A stretch of 43,038 nt of DNA from contig JAAXUF010000013.1 in the NCBI GenBank assembly GCA_013336165.1, forward strand, positions 1 through 43,038. The letters run 5' to 3'. The notes under the pieces are model-generated. The model worked only from the letters and a program-made list of their open reading frames with translations. It was not told the origin of the DNA and did no database searches. Source of the DNA: Coriobacteriia bacterium (GTDB taxonomy: Bacteria > Actinomycetota > Coriobacteriia > Anaerosomatales > JAAXUF01). The position numbers and the translations under genes are program-made. Below are positions 31,701 to 39,312 of this stretch, in pieces. The stretch's first letter is position 1. Each line of letters opens with the position of its first letter.

Positions 31701-31724
31701 GTAACGCCCGTCTCCGGGCGTTAC
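31701..31724 (-). terminator. Intrinsic terminator after rho
   Basis: A perfect 10-bp inverted repeat, GTAACGCCCG (31701-31710) and CGGGCGTTAC (31715-31724), with a four-base loop. In the minus-strand transcript it is followed by UUGUUUCU. It lies 32 bases after the rho stop, so the operon that contains the termination factor itself ends at a factor-independent site. Confidence 0.85.
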
Positions 31725-31756: not shown

Positions 31757-33121
31757 CTAGAAGTCCATTCCGTTGCCCTTGGTTTGCGCCTGCTTGGCCA
31801 TGCGGGTGAGGAACTCCTGGTTGCTCTCGGTCTGCTTAAGCCCCTTGATGAGCATGTCGATGGCGCGCTCCGGGTTGTCGATGCCGTGGAGAATGCGGCG
31901 CACACCCCACACGAACGGCGCCTCTGTCGGCTCGAGCAGCAGTTCCTCCTTGCGGGTACCCGACGTGATGACGTCGATGGCCGGGAAGATGCGCTTGTCG
32001 GCAAGGCCGCGGTCGAGGCGCAACTCCATGTTGCCGGTGCCCTTGAACTCCTCGAAGATGACCTCGTCCATCTTGGATCCGGTGTCGACGAGCGCGGTCG
32101 CAAGGATCGTGAGCGAGCCGCCGAATTCAATGTTGCGCGCCGCGCCGAAGAACTTCTTGGGCGGATAGAGTGCCTGGGAGTCGACACCTCCGGAGAGGAT
32201 GCGCCCGCTTGCAGGAGTGGCGAGGTTGTACGCACGAGCCAGACGCGTGATCGAGTCGAGCAGGATCACGACGTCACGACCGCTTTCGACGAGGCGCTTT
32301 GCGCGCTCCATGACGAGCTCGGCGACCGCGATGTGCTGCTCGCTGGGCATGTCGAACGTCGAGGAGACGACCTCTCCGTGGATCGAGCGCTCCATGTCGG
32401 TGACTTCCTCGGGCCGCTCGTCAACGAGCAGGCACATAAGGAACACCTCGGGGTTATTCGCCGAGATTGACGCGGCGATGTCTTTGAGCACGGTCGTCTT
32501 GCCGGCCTTGGGAGGCGAGACAATGAGCCCGCGCTGACCCTTGCCGATCGGAGCCACCATGTCGATGGTGCGTGCGGTCAGGAACTCCCTGCCGTGCTCC
32601 ATGCGCAGGCGCTCATCCGGATAGACCGGCGTGAGATCGGCGAATCGTGGGCGACCCTTCAGGGTGGCGGGCTCGCGCTCGTTGATGAAGTCGATGCGCT
32701 GGAGCGCCGGATACTTCTCGTTGTCCTTGGGCGGCCGGACCTGGCCCAGGATGTAGTCACCTCGGCGCAGTTCGTTTCGACGGATGATCGACATCGAGAC
32801 GTAGACGTCGTGGTCACCCGGCAGGTAGCCATCCGTGCGGATGAAGCCGTAGCCTTCCGGCAGAACATCAAGGATGCCGGTGATCTCGATGAAGCCCTCA
32901 GACTTGACCTTGACCTCGAGAGCTGAGAAGACGGCGTTGATGACGTCGTTCTTGAGCTTCATCGGCTTGGTGTCGATGCCCAACTCGGCAGCCATGGCGC
33001 GAAGCTCGGGCACCGTCTTGGCTTCGAGTTCTTCACGCTTGATCGCCGGTTGCTGAGTGGGGGCCGCTTCCTGCGGTGTCCCGGTGCCCCGGCGGCTTCT
33101 CTTGCGAGGACGTGCGCTCAT
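31757..33121 (-). CDS. rho: Transcription termination factor Rho
   Basis: Hexameric RNA-dependent ATPase that ends transcription. The 454-residue protein has the Rho_N helix domain (EAKTVPELRAMAAELGIDTKPMKLKNDVINAVF, about 33-65) and the cold-shock-like RNA-binding domain with GYGFIRTDGYLPGDHDVYVS (90-109). Walker A is PPKAGKTT (203-210), with the Q-loop and R-loop region GVDSQALYPPKKFFGAARNIEFGGSLT following. It lacks the long Arg-rich N-terminal insertion known from mycobacterial and streptomycete Rho. Its ATG overlaps the stop of the aldolase gene (ATGA), so it is translated with the carbon-metabolism genes upstream. Confidence 0.96.
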   Translation of the reverse strand: MSARPRKRSRRGTGTPQEAAPTQQPAIKREELEAKTVPELRAMAAELGIDTKPMKLKNDVINAVFSALEVKVKSEGFIEITGILDVLPEGYGFIRTDGYLPGDHDVYVSMSIIRRNELRRGDYILGQVRPPKDNEKYPALQRIDFINEREPATLKGRPRFADLTPVYPDERLRMEHGREFLTARTIDMVAPIGKGQRGLIVSPPKAGKTTVLKDIAASISANNPEVFLMCLLVDERPEEVTDMERSIHGEVVSSTFDMPSEQHIAVAELVMERAKRLVESGRDVVILLDSITRLARAYNLATPASGRILSGGVDSQALYPPKKFFGAARNIEFGGSLTILATALVDTGSKMDEVIFEEFKGTGNMELRLDRGLADKRIFPAIDVITSGTRKEELLLEPTEAPFVWGVRRILHGIDNPERAIDMLIKGLKQTESNQEFLTRMAKQAQTKGNGMDF

Positions 33122-33780
33122 GCGTTCTTCACTTTCTCCCAGTCGGCCAGGAATGATTCGAGGCCGCGATCGGTGAGCGGATGCTTCACCAGATTCTTCA
33201 GAACTGCAAAGGGAACCGTCGCGATGTCGGCGCCTACGAGGGCCGCTTGCGTCACATGGTTGGCGCTGCGGATGGACGCGGCGATGACTTCGACCTGGTG
33301 GCCGAAATCGTAGTTGTTCAAGGCGCCCACGACATCCGCGAGCTGCGCGATACCGTCTTCACTGATGTCGTCAAACCTGCCCACGAACGGCGAAACGTAC
33401 GAGGCTCCGGACCGCGCGGCAAGAAGAGCCTGCGGCACTGTGAAGCACAGGGTCATGTTGACCTTGATACCGCGCTGGGACAGTTCACGAGTCGCGGCGA
33501 GACCCTCCGGCATCGTCGGAACCTTCACCACCACGTTGGGAGCGATCTCGGCCAGCTGGAGGCCCTCACGCACGATCTCGTGACGCTCCAGCCCAACCGT
33601 CTCGGCAGAAACGGGCCCATCGATGATCGAGCAGATGCGCGCGATGTGAGCCGGGAAGTCGGAAAGCTTTCCCCCGACGCGGGAGTAGAGTGTGGGGTTG
33701 GTGGTGATACCGGAAAGCACGCCCCAGCTGGCTGCTTCCTCGATTTCGGCGATGTCCGCCGTATCCAGGAAAAACTTCAC
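33118..33780 (-). CDS. Transaldolase / fructose-6-phosphate aldolase-like (TalC type)
   Basis: A 220-residue TIM-barrel aldolase of the short transaldolase group. It starts KFFLDTADIAEIEEAASWGVLSGITTNPTL; the Schiff-base lysine is in VVVKVPTMPEGL (Lys86); CFTVPQALLAARSGASYVSPFVGRFDD follows. Enzymes of this group act as transaldolase or as fructose-6-phosphate aldolase; sequence alone does not decide. The start is a GTG, 13 bases after the 2-phosphoglycerate kinase-like gene, and the stop overlaps the rho start. It may serve pentose-phosphate interconversion along with rpiB. Confidence 0.92.
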   Translation of the reverse strand: MKFFLDTADIAEIEEAASWGVLSGITTNPTLYSRVGGKLSDFPAHIARICSIIDGPVSAETVGLERHEIVREGLQLAEIAPNVVVKVPTMPEGLAATRELSQRGIKVNMTLCFTVPQALLAARSGASYVSPFVGRFDDISEDGIAQLADVVGALNNYDFGHQVEVIAASIRSANHVTQAALVGADIATVPFAVLKNLVKHPLTDRGLESFLADWEKVKNA

Positions 33781-33793
33781 GTTTCAGATCCTC

Positions 33794-34729
33794 CTAAAGT
33801 TGTGTGAGGCCGAGTCCCGGCCCTTTGTCGTTCTCCGCCGCAGAAAGCACGTACTCCAGCACGTCTTCCACTGTGCTGTCGAGCTCATGACTGCAGATCA
33901 CCGGTATGCCCCGCTCGCGTGCAAGTTCCTCGATGTACGTTCCAAGCAGACGTATGTTGCCGAACTCCGAGCGATATCGCTCCTGCGGCCTACTCCCCTT
34001 GCTTTGGGTTTCCCGGATGAAGAAGTGGCTCAAGTGTGCTTCTTCGTCTTCGACGGCCACGACAAGCTGAATCACCCGCGTGCCCTCGAATTGTTTGGGG
34101 TCAAGGTAGCCTGGAACGAGATGAACGCCCTCGATGACCATTGAGATTCCCTCAAGCACCGCCCGCTCTATCAGTGCTTTCACGCCGGTCGTGACGACAG
34201 AGGTCTGTTCGCGAAAACCGACGATCACGGGATTGGCACCCTCCGGCACCGGAACTCTCAGACCCCGCCACGCCGAGAACGCGCTTTCGTAGATGGTGGG
34301 CATGAGGTCTTGAGTAAATATACCACGCATTACCTGTCGAATGGAATCTGTTGAGGAAATCCTTGTGATACCGAGCCGGTGCGCGATTTCCGTTGCGATT
34401 GTCGATTTGCCAACCCCCGTGGTACCGCCGATCAGGATTATCAGCGGACGATCAAGCCGCGCGATGCTGCCAAGACGCCGATATCGCCGCGCATATTGCG
34501 CTGGAGCGAGGCGTTCCAGGTACTCCGCCGCAATCTCGCGAACCCGCTCGAGGGAGACTCTTGTTTCGTGATCGGCCCGCAACTGGTCCTGGATGGACTG
34601 GGCGATCGCATACGCCTCAGCCGGCGGCAATCCGGTGGCCGTCAGCGACTGAGCCAACAGGCCCTTCGAGAACGGCAGCGAGTGAGTCGTTCCGGAGATG
34701 CTGATGGGCGCGGGATGGGATTCGTCCAC
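33794..34729 (-). CDS. 2-phosphoglycerate kinase-like protein (ATP-cone plus P-loop kinase)
   Basis: In methanogens this family phosphorylates 2-phosphoglycerate to 2,3-diphosphoglycerate, the precursor of cyclic 2,3-diphosphoglycerate. The 311-residue protein has an ATP-cone-like N-terminal domain (LPFSKGLLAQSLTATGLPPAEAYAIA, about 18-75). The kinase domain starts PLIILIGGTTGVGKSTIATEIAHRLG (P-loop 101-109, Lys108), continues ISSTDSIRQVMR and has IVGFREQTSVVTTGVKALIERAVLEGISMVIEGVHLVPG. These features and the length agree with archaeal 2-phosphoglycerate kinase. The start is a GTG five bases after the cyclic-diphosphoglycerate synthetase-like gene, whose presence strongly supports the assignment. 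Confidence 0.85.
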   Translation of the reverse strand: MDESHPAPISISGTTHSLPFSKGLLAQSLTATGLPPAEAYAIAQSIQDQLRADHETRVSLERVREIAAEYLERLAPAQYARRYRRLGSIARLDRPLIILIGGTTGVGKSTIATEIAHRLGITRISSTDSIRQVMRGIFTQDLMPTIYESAFSAWRGLRVPVPEGANPVIVGFREQTSVVTTGVKALIERAVLEGISMVIEGVHLVPGYLDPKQFEGTRVIQLVVAVEDEEAHLSHFFIRETQSKGSRPQERYRSEFGNIRLLGTYIEELARERGIPVICSHELDSTVEDVLEYVLSAAENDKGPGLGLTQL

Positions 34730-34734
34730 GTCTG

Positions 34735-36078
34735 CTACCCCCTCCTCCGAAGTCCACGGGCGATAGCGAGTTGAGCCACGCTCGCCGTACGTGCGTCCAG
34801 GTCCGAGCCGTCCACCGCGACCGGAACGTTGTCGCAGAGCACCGTCGGCACACCCAAGCGTGCTCCCGCCTCGGCGACCACGTCTATGGCAGCGGCCTTA
34901 AGCTCCGTGAGCAGAACGTCGAACGTGCCCGCGGCCAGATCGAGTTCAGCACGAAGGCGTCTCCGGTCCGAAAGGGCCGTGCTCACCGCGACCACCTGGC
35001 AGCCGTACTCGGCTTCGAGGTGCGAGACGAGCCCGCCGATCACCCGGCGGGGTGCGGTCGTTGCGAAGAAGACGCGCCGGCCGGCGACAGGTTCGATCGG
35101 GGCAGGGCGAAACGTGGTCGCGACGACCGGCAGATCGGGGCGCTGCTCGACGATTGCCGCGCGCAGGCGCTGCAGAGCCGCGGCGTCGACCAGCGGCTCC
35201 TCGGCGGAAGCGAGCACGACGAGGTCGGCGCGCGCGAGGCGGTATGGGCCGAAGTAGTCGCGCACGTATGTCTCACCTCGGTCGGCGCCGATCACCAGGA
35301 TCGTCGCGTCCGCGTGCACCGGCGGTATCGCAGCGCCTGAGCCTTCCAGCAGCAGCAGTTCCTTGCCGAGAGAATCGGCTAGTACCGCACCCTGCGGCAC
35401 GTTGCTGAAGAACGTCTCCCCCGCCATGCCACCCCCGCACCGACGGCAGCCGATGGTAGTGACCCGCGCCATGACGGCGTCTTCGTAGTTGTCGCTCGCG
35501 GCATGCACACCCGTATGCGCCAGCGCCAGCAAGTCAGTGGTGGTCAGGCGTACGCGCTCGCCGTGGATCAGCTCCGGCTCGGCGGGACCTCCCCGGCCCA
35601 TCGCGAGGACGGCGAGGTCCGTGCCCGCGGCGGTCAGCTGCCGGGCGATGTAGGCCGAGATTGCGGTCTTGCCGACTCTCTTGCCGGTACCGATCACCGC
35701 CAGCGTGGGTGTGTGCGTCACGGCCTGTTCACGCGGGGCGGTGAAGGCGAAATCGGCGCCGCGGTACGACGCGCCGTGCTCGAGGGCGACCGACGCGAAC
35801 CGGAACCTGTCGGCAGACGTGAGCACCGGCTCATCGGACAGGTCGACGACCTCGTCGGCGCCGGTGCTCGCGAGCGCGGCAGCCAGAGCCTCCAGCGCGC
35901 TGCCCCCTCCGATGACCGGCACGCCGTACGCGGCTGCCGCGCCTTGCGTGTCGATCTTCTCCGTGCCGCCAACGAACACCGCCGCGACCACCTCGCCTTC
36001 TCGGCGAAGCTCGTCGAGCGCGAACCGGACGACCGGCGGGTAGTGCTCGCCATCGATGAGCGCGATCGCGCGGCTCAT
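34735..36078 (-). CDS. Cyclic 2,3-diphosphoglycerate synthetase-like protein
   Basis: The archaeal enzyme closes 2,3-diphosphoglycerate to its cyclic anhydride with ATP. The 447-residue protein starts MSRAIALIDGEHYPPVVRFALDEL and has a first alpha/beta domain. It then has a nucleotide-binding segment TLAVIGTGKRVGKTAISAYIARQL (GTGKRVGKT at 130-138) and VLAMGRGGPAEPELI. LLLEGSGAAIPPVHADATILVIGADRG follows, the layout known for cyclic 2,3-diphosphoglycerate synthetase (about 460 residues). A CRRCGGG pair near residue 220 is extra. The ATG at 36078 overlaps the upstream phosphoesterase stop (ATGA). In archaea the product is a potassium-paired thermoprotectant and phosphate or carbon store; the bacterial role is unproven. 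Confidence 0.85.
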   Translation of the reverse strand: MSRAIALIDGEHYPPVVRFALDELRREGEVVAAVFVGGTEKIDTQGAAAAYGVPVIGGGSALEALAAALASTGADEVVDLSDEPVLTSADRFRFASVALEHGASYRGADFAFTAPREQAVTHTPTLAVIGTGKRVGKTAISAYIARQLTAAGTDLAVLAMGRGGPAEPELIHGERVRLTTTDLLALAHTGVHAASDNYEDAVMARVTTIGCRRCGGGMAGETFFSNVPQGAVLADSLGKELLLLEGSGAAIPPVHADATILVIGADRGETYVRDYFGPYRLARADLVVLASAEEPLVDAAALQRLRAAIVEQRPDLPVVATTFRPAPIEPVAGRRVFFATTAPRRVIGGLVSHLEAEYGCQVVAVSTALSDRRRLRAELDLAAGTFDVLLTELKAAAIDVVAEAGARLGVPTVLCDNVPVAVDGSDLDARTASVAQLAIARGLRRRG

Positions 36079-36875
36079 GCGTCCTCCCCCGGCTCGTCGA
36101 ACTCCTCCATGCGCCACCCGCACGCACGCGCATGCATGCCGCCATACTCGCCCACGATCTCGGCGTCGACGAACGGCTCCTTCTGAAAGACGCGTACTTG
36201 GCTGCGGCCGACAACCTCGATGATCTGGTAGCAGGGCCGCACCCGCCCCCGCAGCCGATGCGTGCAGCAGGTTCCCGCGTTGACGATGAGCATGTCCTCA
36301 AGACGCCAGACATTGGGCACATGTTTGTGCCCGCACAGAACGAGATCGGCGCCACTTTCTGAAAGGACCCGGAGCAAATCGCCTGCATCGTTTACCACGT
36401 TGCGTTCGCGCCCGGTCCCCGGAACCGGCAGCGGATGATGATGCATGGCGACCACCTTGAACTCGTTCTCGGCAATGCCGAGACGTTCCTCGATCCAGTG
36501 GTAGGCGTCACGGCCGACCCGCCCGGTGTCAAGATCGGGCTCGCTCGAGTCCAAGCCGATGATGCGCATCTGCGGCAGCGTGAGTTCGGCGCGCCTCGCC
36601 CCGAACAGTTCCTCGAAATGGACGTCTCCCACATTGCGGGCATCGTGGTTGCCGATGAGTACCATCTTGTTCTCGCACTCGATACGATCGATAAGACGGT
36701 GCGCCCGCTCGAACTCGGCGCGAAAGCCCATCTCCGTCAGATCGCCGGTAACCACGACCACGTCCGGATCGAGTTCGTTGAGCTCGTCGACCACTCGAGA
36801 CGCAAGCGAGGGGATATGGTACACCGACCCGCAGTGCAGATCGGAGATGTGCGCGATTATCGTTGAATCTCCCAT
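36075..36875 (-). CDS. Calcineurin-like metallophosphoesterase
   Basis: A 266-residue two-metal phosphoesterase of the class III cyclic-nucleotide phosphodiesterase/Icc type. All metal ligands are present: SDLHCG (Asp12, His14), GDLTE (Asp45), GNHD (Asn76, His77), HHHP (His145-147) and GHKH (His183, His185). No signal peptide is seen, so it acts in the cytoplasm. It is the first gene of the operon and overlaps the cyclic-diphosphoglycerate synthetase-like gene. Hydrolysis of cyclic 2,3-diphosphoglycerate is therefore a tempting but untested role; a cyclic-nucleotide or other phosphodiester substrate is the alternative. In the 100-base gap upstream the minus strand has TTGACC but no well-spaced -10. 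Confidence 0.88.
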   Translation of the reverse strand: MGDSTIIAHISDLHCGSVYHIPSLASRVVDELNELDPDVVVVTGDLTEMGFRAEFERAHRLIDRIECENKMVLIGNHDARNVGDVHFEELFGARRAELTLPQMRIIGLDSSEPDLDTGRVGRDAYHWIEERLGIAENEFKVVAMHHHPLPVPGTGRERNVVNDAGDLLRVLSESGADLVLCGHKHVPNVWRLEDMLIVNAGTCCTHRLRGRVRPCYQIIEVVGRSQVRVFQKEPFVDAEIVGEYGGMHARACGWRMEEFDEPGEDA

Positions 36876-36975: not shown

Positions 36976-37893
36976 CTACAGCACGCGTGCGCCGGTCCGG
37001 TCGATGCGCAGCGCAACAGGTGCTCGGCGCGTCCCCAGCTCCGCGATGCGCGACGAGGCGCGGTCTGCGACCTCCTCGGCGATTCTGTGCGCTTCCTCGT
37101 CGGTACCGGCCGCGACCAGGCCGATCACCGTCGGCCCCGAACCCGAGAGCGCGACTCCCGCGGCACCCGAGTCGCGAAGGATGTCGTGCACGGCCTGCAG
37201 GTCCGCAACCGCTGCCGCGCGATACGGCTCGTGCAGGCGGTCCGCAAGCGCCGAGCCGAGCAGCTCCGGGCGTCCGGTCGCGATCGAGGCCGCGAGCAGC
37301 CCGGCGTGGGCGACGTTGAAGGCGGCGTCGGCGTGCGAGACGGCGTCCGGCAGCATCGCGCGGGCGTCGCGCGTCGCGAGCTCGCCGCGGCCCACGATCA
37401 CGACGGCCGCCAGGCCGCGCGCCGGTTCGAAGCGGGCGAAACGGTGTGCGCCCGAGTCGGTCCAGCACACCGTGAACCCGCCGACGAATGCGGCGGCAAC
37501 GTTGTCGGGATGTCCCTCAAGCTCGGTCGCGATGTCGAGCAGCCGCTGCTGCCCGAGCTCCTCGCCCACGAGTTCCTGAGCCAGGAGCAACCCGCCCACC
37601 ACGGCCGCCGACGACGACCCCAGCCCACTTCCGGTCGGGATGCGGTTCAGGCAGCCGATCGACGCCTTCAGGCCCGGCCGACCCACCGCCTCGAACACGA
37701 GGCGCATCGCAACAGCGATGCGGTTCTCGCTGTCTTGGCGCAGCACGCCCTTGCCCTCGCCCTCGATCTCAACGCTCCACGCATCTGCCAGTTCGGCCTC
37801 GAACCGGTTCGACAGGTCCAGCGCCAGGCCGAACGAGTCAAACCCCGGGCCGAGGTTGGCGGAAGTGGCGGGGACGAGGACGGCGGCTCCCAT
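36976..37893 (-). CDS. thrB: Homoserine kinase (GHMP family)
   Basis: Phosphorylates homoserine on the way to threonine. The 305-residue protein starts with PATSANLGPGFDSFGLALDL, has the GHMP ATP loop IPTGSGLGSSSAAVVG (85-100), GHPDNVAAAFVGGFTV and the C-terminal ALSGSGPTVIGLV. It starts three bases after hom. The usual actinobacterial partner thrC (threonine synthase) is not between them. Confidence 0.95.
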   Translation of the reverse strand: MGAAVLVPATSANLGPGFDSFGLALDLSNRFEAELADAWSVEIEGEGKGVLRQDSENRIAVAMRLVFEAVGRPGLKASIGCLNRIPTGSGLGSSSAAVVGGLLLAQELVGEELGQQRLLDIATELEGHPDNVAAAFVGGFTVCWTDSGAHRFARFEPARGLAAVVIVGRGELATRDARAMLPDAVSHADAAFNVAHAGLLAASIATGRPELLGSALADRLHEPYRAAAVADLQAVHDILRDSGAAGVALSGSGPTVIGLVAAGTDEEAHRIAEEVADRASSRIAELGTRRAPVALRIDRTGARVL

Positions 37894-37896
37894 GGC

Positions 37897-39183
37897 CTAG
37901 AGTTCCTCGACCCTGATCACGGAAGCGATGTTGCTCACGATGTCGAGTGCGGTGATCTCGGCCAGCGAGGCGCGCAGATCCGCCTCAAGAGCCAGGTGCG
38001 TCACGTAGACGATCTCGGCGACGCCGTTCTCGGCACGCTTCTGGAGAACCGAGCCGATGGAGACTTCGTGGTCCCCGAACACCTTGGCGACTGCGGCGAG
38101 CACGCCGGGCTTGTCGGCGACTTCGAGGCGGACGTAGTATTCGGTCGCGATCTCGGAGATGTCGCGCACAGGCAGGTGCTCGGTACAGGTGCAACCCACG
38201 AGCGGTGCACAGCCGCTCTGGAGGCGGCGCGCTTCCTCGATGAGGTCGCCGACAACCGCCGAGGCGGCGGGAAGCGAACCGGCGCCTTCGCCGAAGAACA
38301 TCGTCTCGCCCACTGCGTCGCCCACGACATAGATGGCGTTGTAGACACCGTTAACCGCGGCCAGAGGGTGATCCGAGCGGATCATGGTCGGGTGCACGCG
38401 CACGTCGATGCCCTCGGCGGTGCGCCGCGCGATGGCGAGCAGCTTGATGGTGTAACCCATCTCCTTGGCGTATGCGATGTCCTGAGGGGCCAGCGTGCGG
38501 ATGCCCTCGGCCGAAACCTGACTCAGGACGACCCTGCTGTTGAATGCGATGGAGGCGAGGATCGCGATCTTGGCCGCGGCGTCCAGGCCGTCGACGTCGG
38601 CGCTGGGATCGGCCTCGGCGAAGCCTTTTGCCTGAGCCTCAGCCAGTGCCGCCTCATAGTCGAGCCCGTTTTGCGCCATGCGGGTGAGCATGTAGTTGGT
38701 GGTACCGTTGACGATCCCCATGACCGTATGGATCTCGTTTGAGGTGAGCGAGTGCTTGAGCGGCGCGATGATCGGGATGCCCCCGCCGACGGAAGCCTCG
38801 AAGAGGATCTCGACGCCGTTGGCCTCGGCGGCATGCATGACTTCCTCGCCGTGGCTCGCAAGCAGCGCCTTATTCGCGGTGACGACGCTCTTGCCGGCAG
38901 CAAGCGCGGCCAGCACGATCTCGCGGGCAACACCCGTTCCGCCGATGAGCTCGATCACGATGTCGACTTCCGGGTCGTTGATCACGTCCGTCGCATCAGT
39001 CGTGCAAGCGCCCTCAGCCAAGCCGAGACCTTCGAAACGCGCCGTGTTGCGATCCGCACAGCGAACAAGTTCGATGTCGACGCCTGCGCGACGTCCAAAA
39101 TCTGCTCTGTGGCGCCGCAGGATCTCAACGACCCCCGAGCCTACGGTACCCAGTCCGATGAGGCCGACTTTGATGGTGCGCAT
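37897..39183 (-). CDS. hom: Homoserine dehydrogenase with ACT domain
   Basis: Reduces aspartate semialdehyde to homoserine with NAD(P)H. The 428-residue protein has the nucleotide loop GLIGLGTVGSG (7-17) and the catalytic block GIVNGTTNYMLTRM. GFAEADPSADVDGLDAAAKIAILA follows. The C-terminal ACT domain (EYYVRLEVADKPGVLAAVAKVFGDHEVSIGSV onward) is usually a threonine feedback site. The ATG at 39183 has AGGAGG seven bases upstream; the longer in-frame extension runs through a palindrome and is non-coding. Confidence 0.96.
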   Translation of the reverse strand: MRTIKVGLIGLGTVGSGVVEILRRHRADFGRRAGVDIELVRCADRNTARFEGLGLAEGACTTDATDVINDPEVDIVIELIGGTGVAREIVLAALAAGKSVVTANKALLASHGEEVMHAAEANGVEILFEASVGGGIPIIAPLKHSLTSNEIHTVMGIVNGTTNYMLTRMAQNGLDYEAALAEAQAKGFAEADPSADVDGLDAAAKIAILASIAFNSRVVLSQVSAEGIRTLAPQDIAYAKEMGYTIKLLAIARRTAEGIDVRVHPTMIRSDHPLAAVNGVYNAIYVVGDAVGETMFFGEGAGSLPAASAVVGDLIEEARRLQSGCAPLVGCTCTEHLPVRDISEIATEYYVRLEVADKPGVLAAVAKVFGDHEVSIGSVLQKRAENGVAEIVYVTHLALEADLRASLAEITALDIVSNIASVIRVEEL

Positions 39184-39204
39184 GGAACTGCCTCCTAGAA
39201 AACG

Positions 39205-39245
39205 CAATGAACGTCGCAGGCCCTTCTGACCTGCGACGTTCATTG
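39205..39245 (-). promoter_or_regulatory. Perfect 16-bp inverted repeat in the hom leader
   Basis: CAATGAACGTCGCAGG (39205-39220) and its exact reverse complement (39230-39245) flank a nine-base loop, 22 bases before the hom ATG. In the minus-strand RNA the stem is followed by CGUUUUC and then the AGGAGG site, so it could act as a terminator for the small upstream gene or as an attenuator. A -10-like TACAAT (39242-39247, with weak GCGACC at 39266-39271) overlaps its upstream arm, so an operator is the other reading. Confidence 0.6.
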
Positions 39246-39312
39246 TAGCGAAGCTACAGGATCTGGGTCGCGTTGTCTCCCCCGCGACTTCAAGCAAACC
39301 TTCACTCGTACT

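Follow-up and report, generated by a model that had tools for sequence, protein, structure and literature searches.

A conserved gene cluster for the probable synthesis and turnover of cyclic 2,3-diphosphoglycerate in Actinomycetota

Results

Gene content of the locus

The DNA analyzed here is a 43,038-nucleotide stretch (the window) of contig JAAXUF010000013.1 from a Coriobacteriia bacterium. Its minus strand carries, in order of transcription, hom, thrB, mpe, cdpgs, a gene for a 2-phosphoglycerate kinase homolog, fsa, and rho. The cdpgs gene (34735-36078, ATG start) encodes P0002, a 447-residue homolog of cyclic 2,3-diphosphoglycerate (cDPG) synthetase, and the kinase gene downstream of it (33794-34729, GTG start) encodes the 311-residue P0001. 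Upstream lies mpe (36075-36875), whose 266-residue product, P0003, is a metallophosphoesterase (PF00149, E = 2.6e-17, 64.4 bits against a gathering cut-off of 21.5). The original prediction, made from the letters of the DNA, held that two adjacent genes at 33794-36078 encode cDPG synthesis. Both genes do lie there, on the minus strand, but the cluster extends to 36875, the conserved third gene, mpe, having been overlooked.

Beyond the kinase gene lie fsa/talC (33118-33780), of the fructose-6-phosphate aldolase/transaldolase family (TIGR00875, 250.6 bits against a cut-off of 245.95), and a housekeeping neighbor, the transcription termination factor gene rho (31757-33121; TIGR00767, 627.8 bits, over the cut-off). 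Among relatives, fsa is often, but not always, the next gene in line. Because mpe and cdpgs overlap by 4 nt, cdpgs and the kinase gene are 5 nt apart, the kinase gene and fsa are 13 nt apart, and fsa and rho again overlap by 4 nt, the genes from mpe through rho probably form a single transcript. The homoserine kinase gene thrB (36976-37893; TIGR00191, over the cut-off), 100 nt from mpe, is probably not part of the cDPG pathway. No promoter was found by sigma-70 consensus. A terminator-like hairpin of 10 pairs on the minus strand 3' of rho (31701-31724) is a possible end of the transcription unit; it comes from a consensus scan in which the number of sites was not above the shuffled expectation. 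Codon composition, predicted to be uniform, is not quite so, with a GC3 of 0.68 in the kinase gene versus 0.77-0.87 in neighboring genes. Farther upstream, a minus-strand hairpin of 18 pairs with a T-rich tail (39205-39245) lies inside the 5' end of the longest hom open reading frame (37897-39297, upstream of thrB). It precedes the likely true hom start near 39180, and is perhaps the terminator of the gene upstream or a leader attenuator.

P0002 is a cDPG synthetase homolog

P0002 resembles the Methanothermus fervidus cDPG synthetase over its full length (phmmer E = 1.5e-120 to structures 8oru and 8ork, approximately 43% identity), with residues 3-439 aligning to 5-452 of 8oru, including the unique N-terminal domain. 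A second solved cDPG synthetase, 9sxb, whose sequence groups among Thermococcaceae in the synthetase tree, matches at E = 1.6e-104. From the published complex (PMC10690619) we took the residues in contact with ADP, Mg, and 2,3-diphosphoglycerate (2,3-DPG) and mapped them onto P0002. E45, K46, K145, R146, K149, T150, D208, T353, E404, and K406 are identical in P0002 and in all 32 aligned sequences, and the E305 site, which is E or D across those 32, is kept in P0002; the published ligand residue P335 did not map to a proline in this numbering. Nearly all contact residues for ATP/Mg and 2,3-DPG are shared by the two proteins.

An AlphaFold2 model of P0002 built with 51 homologs (mean pLDDT 93.9) superimposes on 2,3-DPG/ADP-bound 8oru with a TM score of 0.94 at 2.1 Å, while the next-best folds, LpxK and UreG, reach query TM scores of about 0.4 or below. 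P0002 has no family match in Pfam or NCBIfam; in our tree, archaeal and bacterial synthetase sequences form one family. We conclude that P0002 is a cDPG synthetase homolog and that the name is right. The predicted P-loop, GTGKRVGKT, is present, and the best matches of P0002 lie with the archaeal enzyme, not with other P-loop families. One difference is in context, as the P0002 operon includes the kinase and phosphoesterase genes, whereas the synthetase stands by itself in the Methanobacteria loci examined.

P0001 is a 2-phosphoglycerate kinase homolog

Like the NCBIfam 2-phosphoglycerate kinases, P0001 combines an ATP-cone (PF03477, 27.5 bits, over the cut-off) with a P-loop kinase domain that follows it, both as originally predicted. 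The P-loop, GGTTGVGKS, occupies residues 101-109, and G101, G102, G107, S109, and T110 are invariant in 81 homologs. P0001 spans nearly the entire NF003259 model (E = 3.3e-90) but does not cover the N-terminal portion of NF008994, a model of 492 positions (E = 1.1e-94). Its scores, 302.6 bits and 317.7 bits, fall below the respective curated equivalog cut-offs of 343 and 603, and the superfamily that holds these models also includes mevalonate-3-phosphate 5-kinase. For these reasons we call P0001, by its sequence, a 2-phosphoglycerate kinase homolog rather than an equivalog member, so the predicted kinase identity stands at the level of homology and not of the curated family. Its substrate would be 2-phosphoglycerate, an assignment that draws in part on the genomic link to the synthetase.

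P0003 belongs to a metallophosphoesterase family with a distinctive motif

The DxH, GD, GNHD, HHH, and GHxH motifs are invariant across 40 relatives of P0003, and R156-E157-R158 is a conserved stretch of the protein. The predicted structure (pLDDT 89.9) is closest in the PDB to GpdQ and Rv0805 (TM 0.66-0.75, approximately 20% identity), class III phosphodiesterases that share with P0003 the metallophosphoesterase fold and metal-site motifs. These two enzymes cleave glycerophosphodiesters and cyclic nucleotides. P0003 differs from them in an extra motif, HHHxxPxPxxGRER, shared by the family linked to cDPG synthetase. In the form HHHxxPxPxxGxER it is common to linked and unlinked orthologs, with two loci deviating (L042, from Archaeoglobi, and L148), and is absent from generic relatives, from second phosphoesterase domains, and from the aligned stretch of Rv0805. 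P0003 has no obvious membrane segment.

At eight loci the linked phosphoesterase is approximately 500 residues long and consists of two domains in tandem, of which the second forms its own clade and lacks HHHxxPxPxxGxER.

The three genes co-occur across Actinomycetota

The cluster is truly bacterial but, contrary to how it first appeared, is no isolated oddity: of the 296 genomes sampled from the phylum, 162 have the synthetase. Fisher tests were applied to co-occurrence in this sample. The kinase accompanies the synthetase in 159/162 genomes, compared to 4/134 genomes without synthetase, and a phosphoesterase match is present in 158/162 versus 13/134. Because some of these genome-level phosphoesterase matches are relatives located elsewhere in the genome, adjacency is the firmer count. 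Where actinobacterial loci have sufficient flanking sequence, mpe is the gene directly preceding the synthetase in 72 of 80; the kinase gene directly follows the synthetase in 64 of 74. The order phosphoesterase-synthetase-kinase is kept across many actinobacterial families, and one actinobacterial group has no phosphoesterase beside the synthetase.

Four Rubrobacter loci have the synthetase and phosphoesterase together with no kinase nearby. In one family of the phylum sample, which we take to be that of Rubrobacter, the sole kinase relative is approximately 37% identical and located elsewhere in the genome. cDPG synthesis is less certain in Rubrobacter, since the kinase is not nearby and its probable relative is only this similar.

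Within the class, three order-mates of the host carry the cluster (61-64% synthetase identity), at least 20 genomes do not, and the nearest named synthetase sequences are from Coriobacteriia. A record titled Slackia heliotrinireducens has the full cluster, although sampled genomes of the class outside the host order lack it; this organism label is probably a misassignment.

Linkage recurs in archaea and other bacterial phyla

We scanned GTDB genomes for the two-motif pattern HAASD-x13-GCRRCGGG, recovering at least 116 loci. Among the matches listed were Actinomycetota, Methanobacteriales, Thermococcaceae, Archaeoglobi, Thermoplasmata, Theionarchaea, Methanolliviera, and haloarchaea, as well as at least one or two members each of Poribacteria, Cloacimonadota, Calditrichota, Bipolaricaulota, Neomarinimicrobiota, and Mcinerneyibacterium. 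A phosphoesterase gene lies near the synthetase also in Thermococcus, Archaeoglobi, Theionarchaea, Thermoplasmata, Cloacimonadota, Bipolaricaulota, and Mcinerneyibacterium, in differing layouts. Loci from Theionarchaea, Thermoplasmata, and Cloacimonadota encode, in this order, the synthetase, the kinase, a CBS-domain-like protein, and a two-domain phosphoesterase; in Thermococcus, the genes for the CBS-like protein and the phosphoesterase point toward the synthetase-kinase pair; in Archaeoglobi, the kinase adjoins the phosphoesterase. That linkage recurs in such varied arrangements is our strongest indication that the phosphoesterase would belong to the cDPG pathway.

In Methanobacteriaceae, orthologs of the phosphoesterase occur in 45/60 genomes and are unlinked in the loci checked; they are present in 40/49 genomes with the synthetase versus 5/11 without, a weak association (p = 0.02). 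No ortholog was found in the haloarchaeal and Methanobrevibacter genomes tested, even though these bear the synthetase.

Reading the loci by eye, we noted at four of them (those of Theionarchaea, Thermoplasmata, and Cloacimonadota above, and L149) that the CBS-domain-like protein is small, 135-144 residues, and encoded between the kinase and phosphoesterase or beside the phosphoesterase. It is a possible nucleotide-sensing regulator of the cDPG pathway. Also by eye, the unlinked phosphoesterase gene of a Methanolliviera locus is flanked on both sides by phosphate-binding-protein-like genes and has a PstC-like gene farther downstream, a neighborhood hinting at a link to phosphate metabolism.

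Evolution of the cluster and nature of the host

The synthetase tree falls roughly into two parts, one actinobacterial and the other archaeal plus other bacterial. With archaeal sequences included, a single actinobacterial clade was not rejected (p-AU = 0.446), though the tree is unrooted and from a quick search, and for that reason the direction and date of any transfer lie beyond it. The breadth of distribution and the conserved gene order argue for an old, widespread presence of the cluster that includes mesophiles, in agreement with the original prediction of old rather than recent presence. A plasmid collection held no synthetase homolog, and so gives no sign of plasmid spread.

Judged roughly by its amino-acid composition, the window would come from a moderate thermophile (IVYWREL 0.414, about 53 °C). 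A full reverse gyrase was not found in the host, which gave only a topoisomerase-domain match; we therefore reject host hyperthermophily, and the host of P0002 is in this respect unlike that of the M. fervidus enzyme. For phosphoglycerate mutase, the host gave a strong match of the cofactor-independent type and none above the cut-off for the cofactor-dependent type; 2,3-DPG is therefore not required as a mutase cofactor, and a role for the cluster as the source of that cofactor was rejected. Cultured Anaerosomatales include a mesophile and a thermophile, both with a cofactor-independent mutase (PMC9686372).

Discussion

The mpe-cdpgs-kinase cluster very probably carries out cDPG synthesis, with substrates and product assigned by homology, and we consider it probable that the cluster both makes and turns over this compound. 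The kinase would convert 2-phosphoglycerate from glycolysis or gluconeogenesis to 2,3-DPG, a step that supports the predicted connection of the pathway to glycolysis. The synthetase, which by analogy with M. fervidus may be a dimer, would then close the cDPG ring at the cost of ATP. On genomic context, the metallophosphoesterase may hydrolyze the ring anhydride of cDPG, or the resulting 2,3-DPG, returning phosphate and C3 carbon. cDPG would thus be a phosphate and carbon reserve and a charged solute, and not solely a thermoprotectant. Such a store is consistent with the reversibility of the M. fervidus synthetase, which can regenerate ATP (reviewed in PMC1224877), and with a cDPG hydrolase activity in Methanothermobacter that is membrane-bound and that K and Pi inhibit (van Alebeek 1994 and Sastry 1992, as relayed in PMC1224877). 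The reaction we propose for P0003 is the same as that of this hydrolase as relayed there, though the archaeal activity is membrane-bound and P0003 looks soluble. Our search of the open-access literature found no gene named for that activity and no measurement of cDPG in a bacterium. Among solutes found in Rubrobacter are trehalose, mannosylglycerate, and DIP; cDPG is not listed, by a method not aimed at it (PMC3505630). The divergent, unlinked kinase of Rubrobacter qualifies this list as counter-evidence.

For P0003 itself, we lean slightly toward action on cDPG or 2,3-DPG, a reaction suggested by context. It is conceivable, if somewhat doubtful, that the kinase and synthetase make cDPG while the phosphoesterase merely shares their operon and acts as a phosphodiesterase of another metabolite, as its nearest characterized folds, GpdQ and Rv0805, and its absence or lack of linkage in some synthetase-bearing lineages might indicate. 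Against such chance company stand the near-complete co-occurrence with the synthetase in Actinomycetota, the recurrence of linkage, in varied layouts and with a two-domain form, across archaea and a number of bacterial phyla, and a motif common to linked and unlinked orthologs yet absent from generic relatives. Another possibility is that the synthetase homolog has drifted to a different reaction and the cluster yields open-chain 2,3-DPG, for example as a mutase cofactor. The kinase alone would give that product. Among Class I methanogens, 2-phosphoglycerate kinase is universal, even in mesophiles, and only some also have the synthetase; a different function in mesophiles has been suggested (PMC2686161). 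We regard this possibility as very unlikely, since every mappable substrate-contacting residue is kept in the synthetase and the mutases of the host and of cultured Anaerosomatales are cofactor-independent (PMC9686372).

That the cDPG names are mistaken, P0001 and P0002 being members of other P-loop families, is highly improbable. P-loops are common motifs and the synthetase is without a Pfam or NCBIfam match, but its full-length homology takes in the unique N-terminal domain, its fold matches at a TM score of 0.94 against about 0.4 or below for the next folds, and archaeal and bacterial synthetases fall in a single family. Nor do we give much credence, only slightly more than to a naming error, to a recent gain of the cluster from an archaeon as a thermoprotection trait. 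Host-gut Methanobrevibacter and Gaiella, which are mesophiles, are among the carriers; half of the sampled phylum has the cluster in largely the same gene order; a single actinobacterial clade is not rejected (p-AU = 0.446); and the host lacks a full reverse gyrase. These observations outweigh the moderately thermophilic composition of the window and the fact that cDPG has been reported solely from archaea (PMC10690619).

Returning to synthesis and turnover of cDPG by the three genes together, we put forward a broader proposal more tentatively, as one that may well prove wrong: that the metallophosphoesterase family linked to cDPG synthetase is the missing cDPG hydrolase, that a three-gene cDPG cycle of kinase, synthetase, and hydrolase is common to bacteria and archaea, joined in some archaea and candidate bacterial phyla by a CBS-domain regulator, and that cDPG is a widespread reserve metabolite of deep-branching actinobacteria, not a speciality of hyperthermophilic methanogens. 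Since database auto-annotations may already bear the synthetase name, the novelty lies not in the gene name but in the pathway, in how widely it is distributed, and in the third gene.

cDPG was stated as recently as 2023 to be exclusive to hyperthermophilic methanogens (PMC10690619). The linked phosphoesterase is a directly testable candidate for the hydrolase activity reported in the 1990s for which no gene was found. If cDPG is made by half of the actinobacteria sampled, among them lineages from soil, groundwater, and sediment, its role would be wider than heat protection, and there may be an unmeasured pool of organic phosphate in soil and subsurface bacteria.
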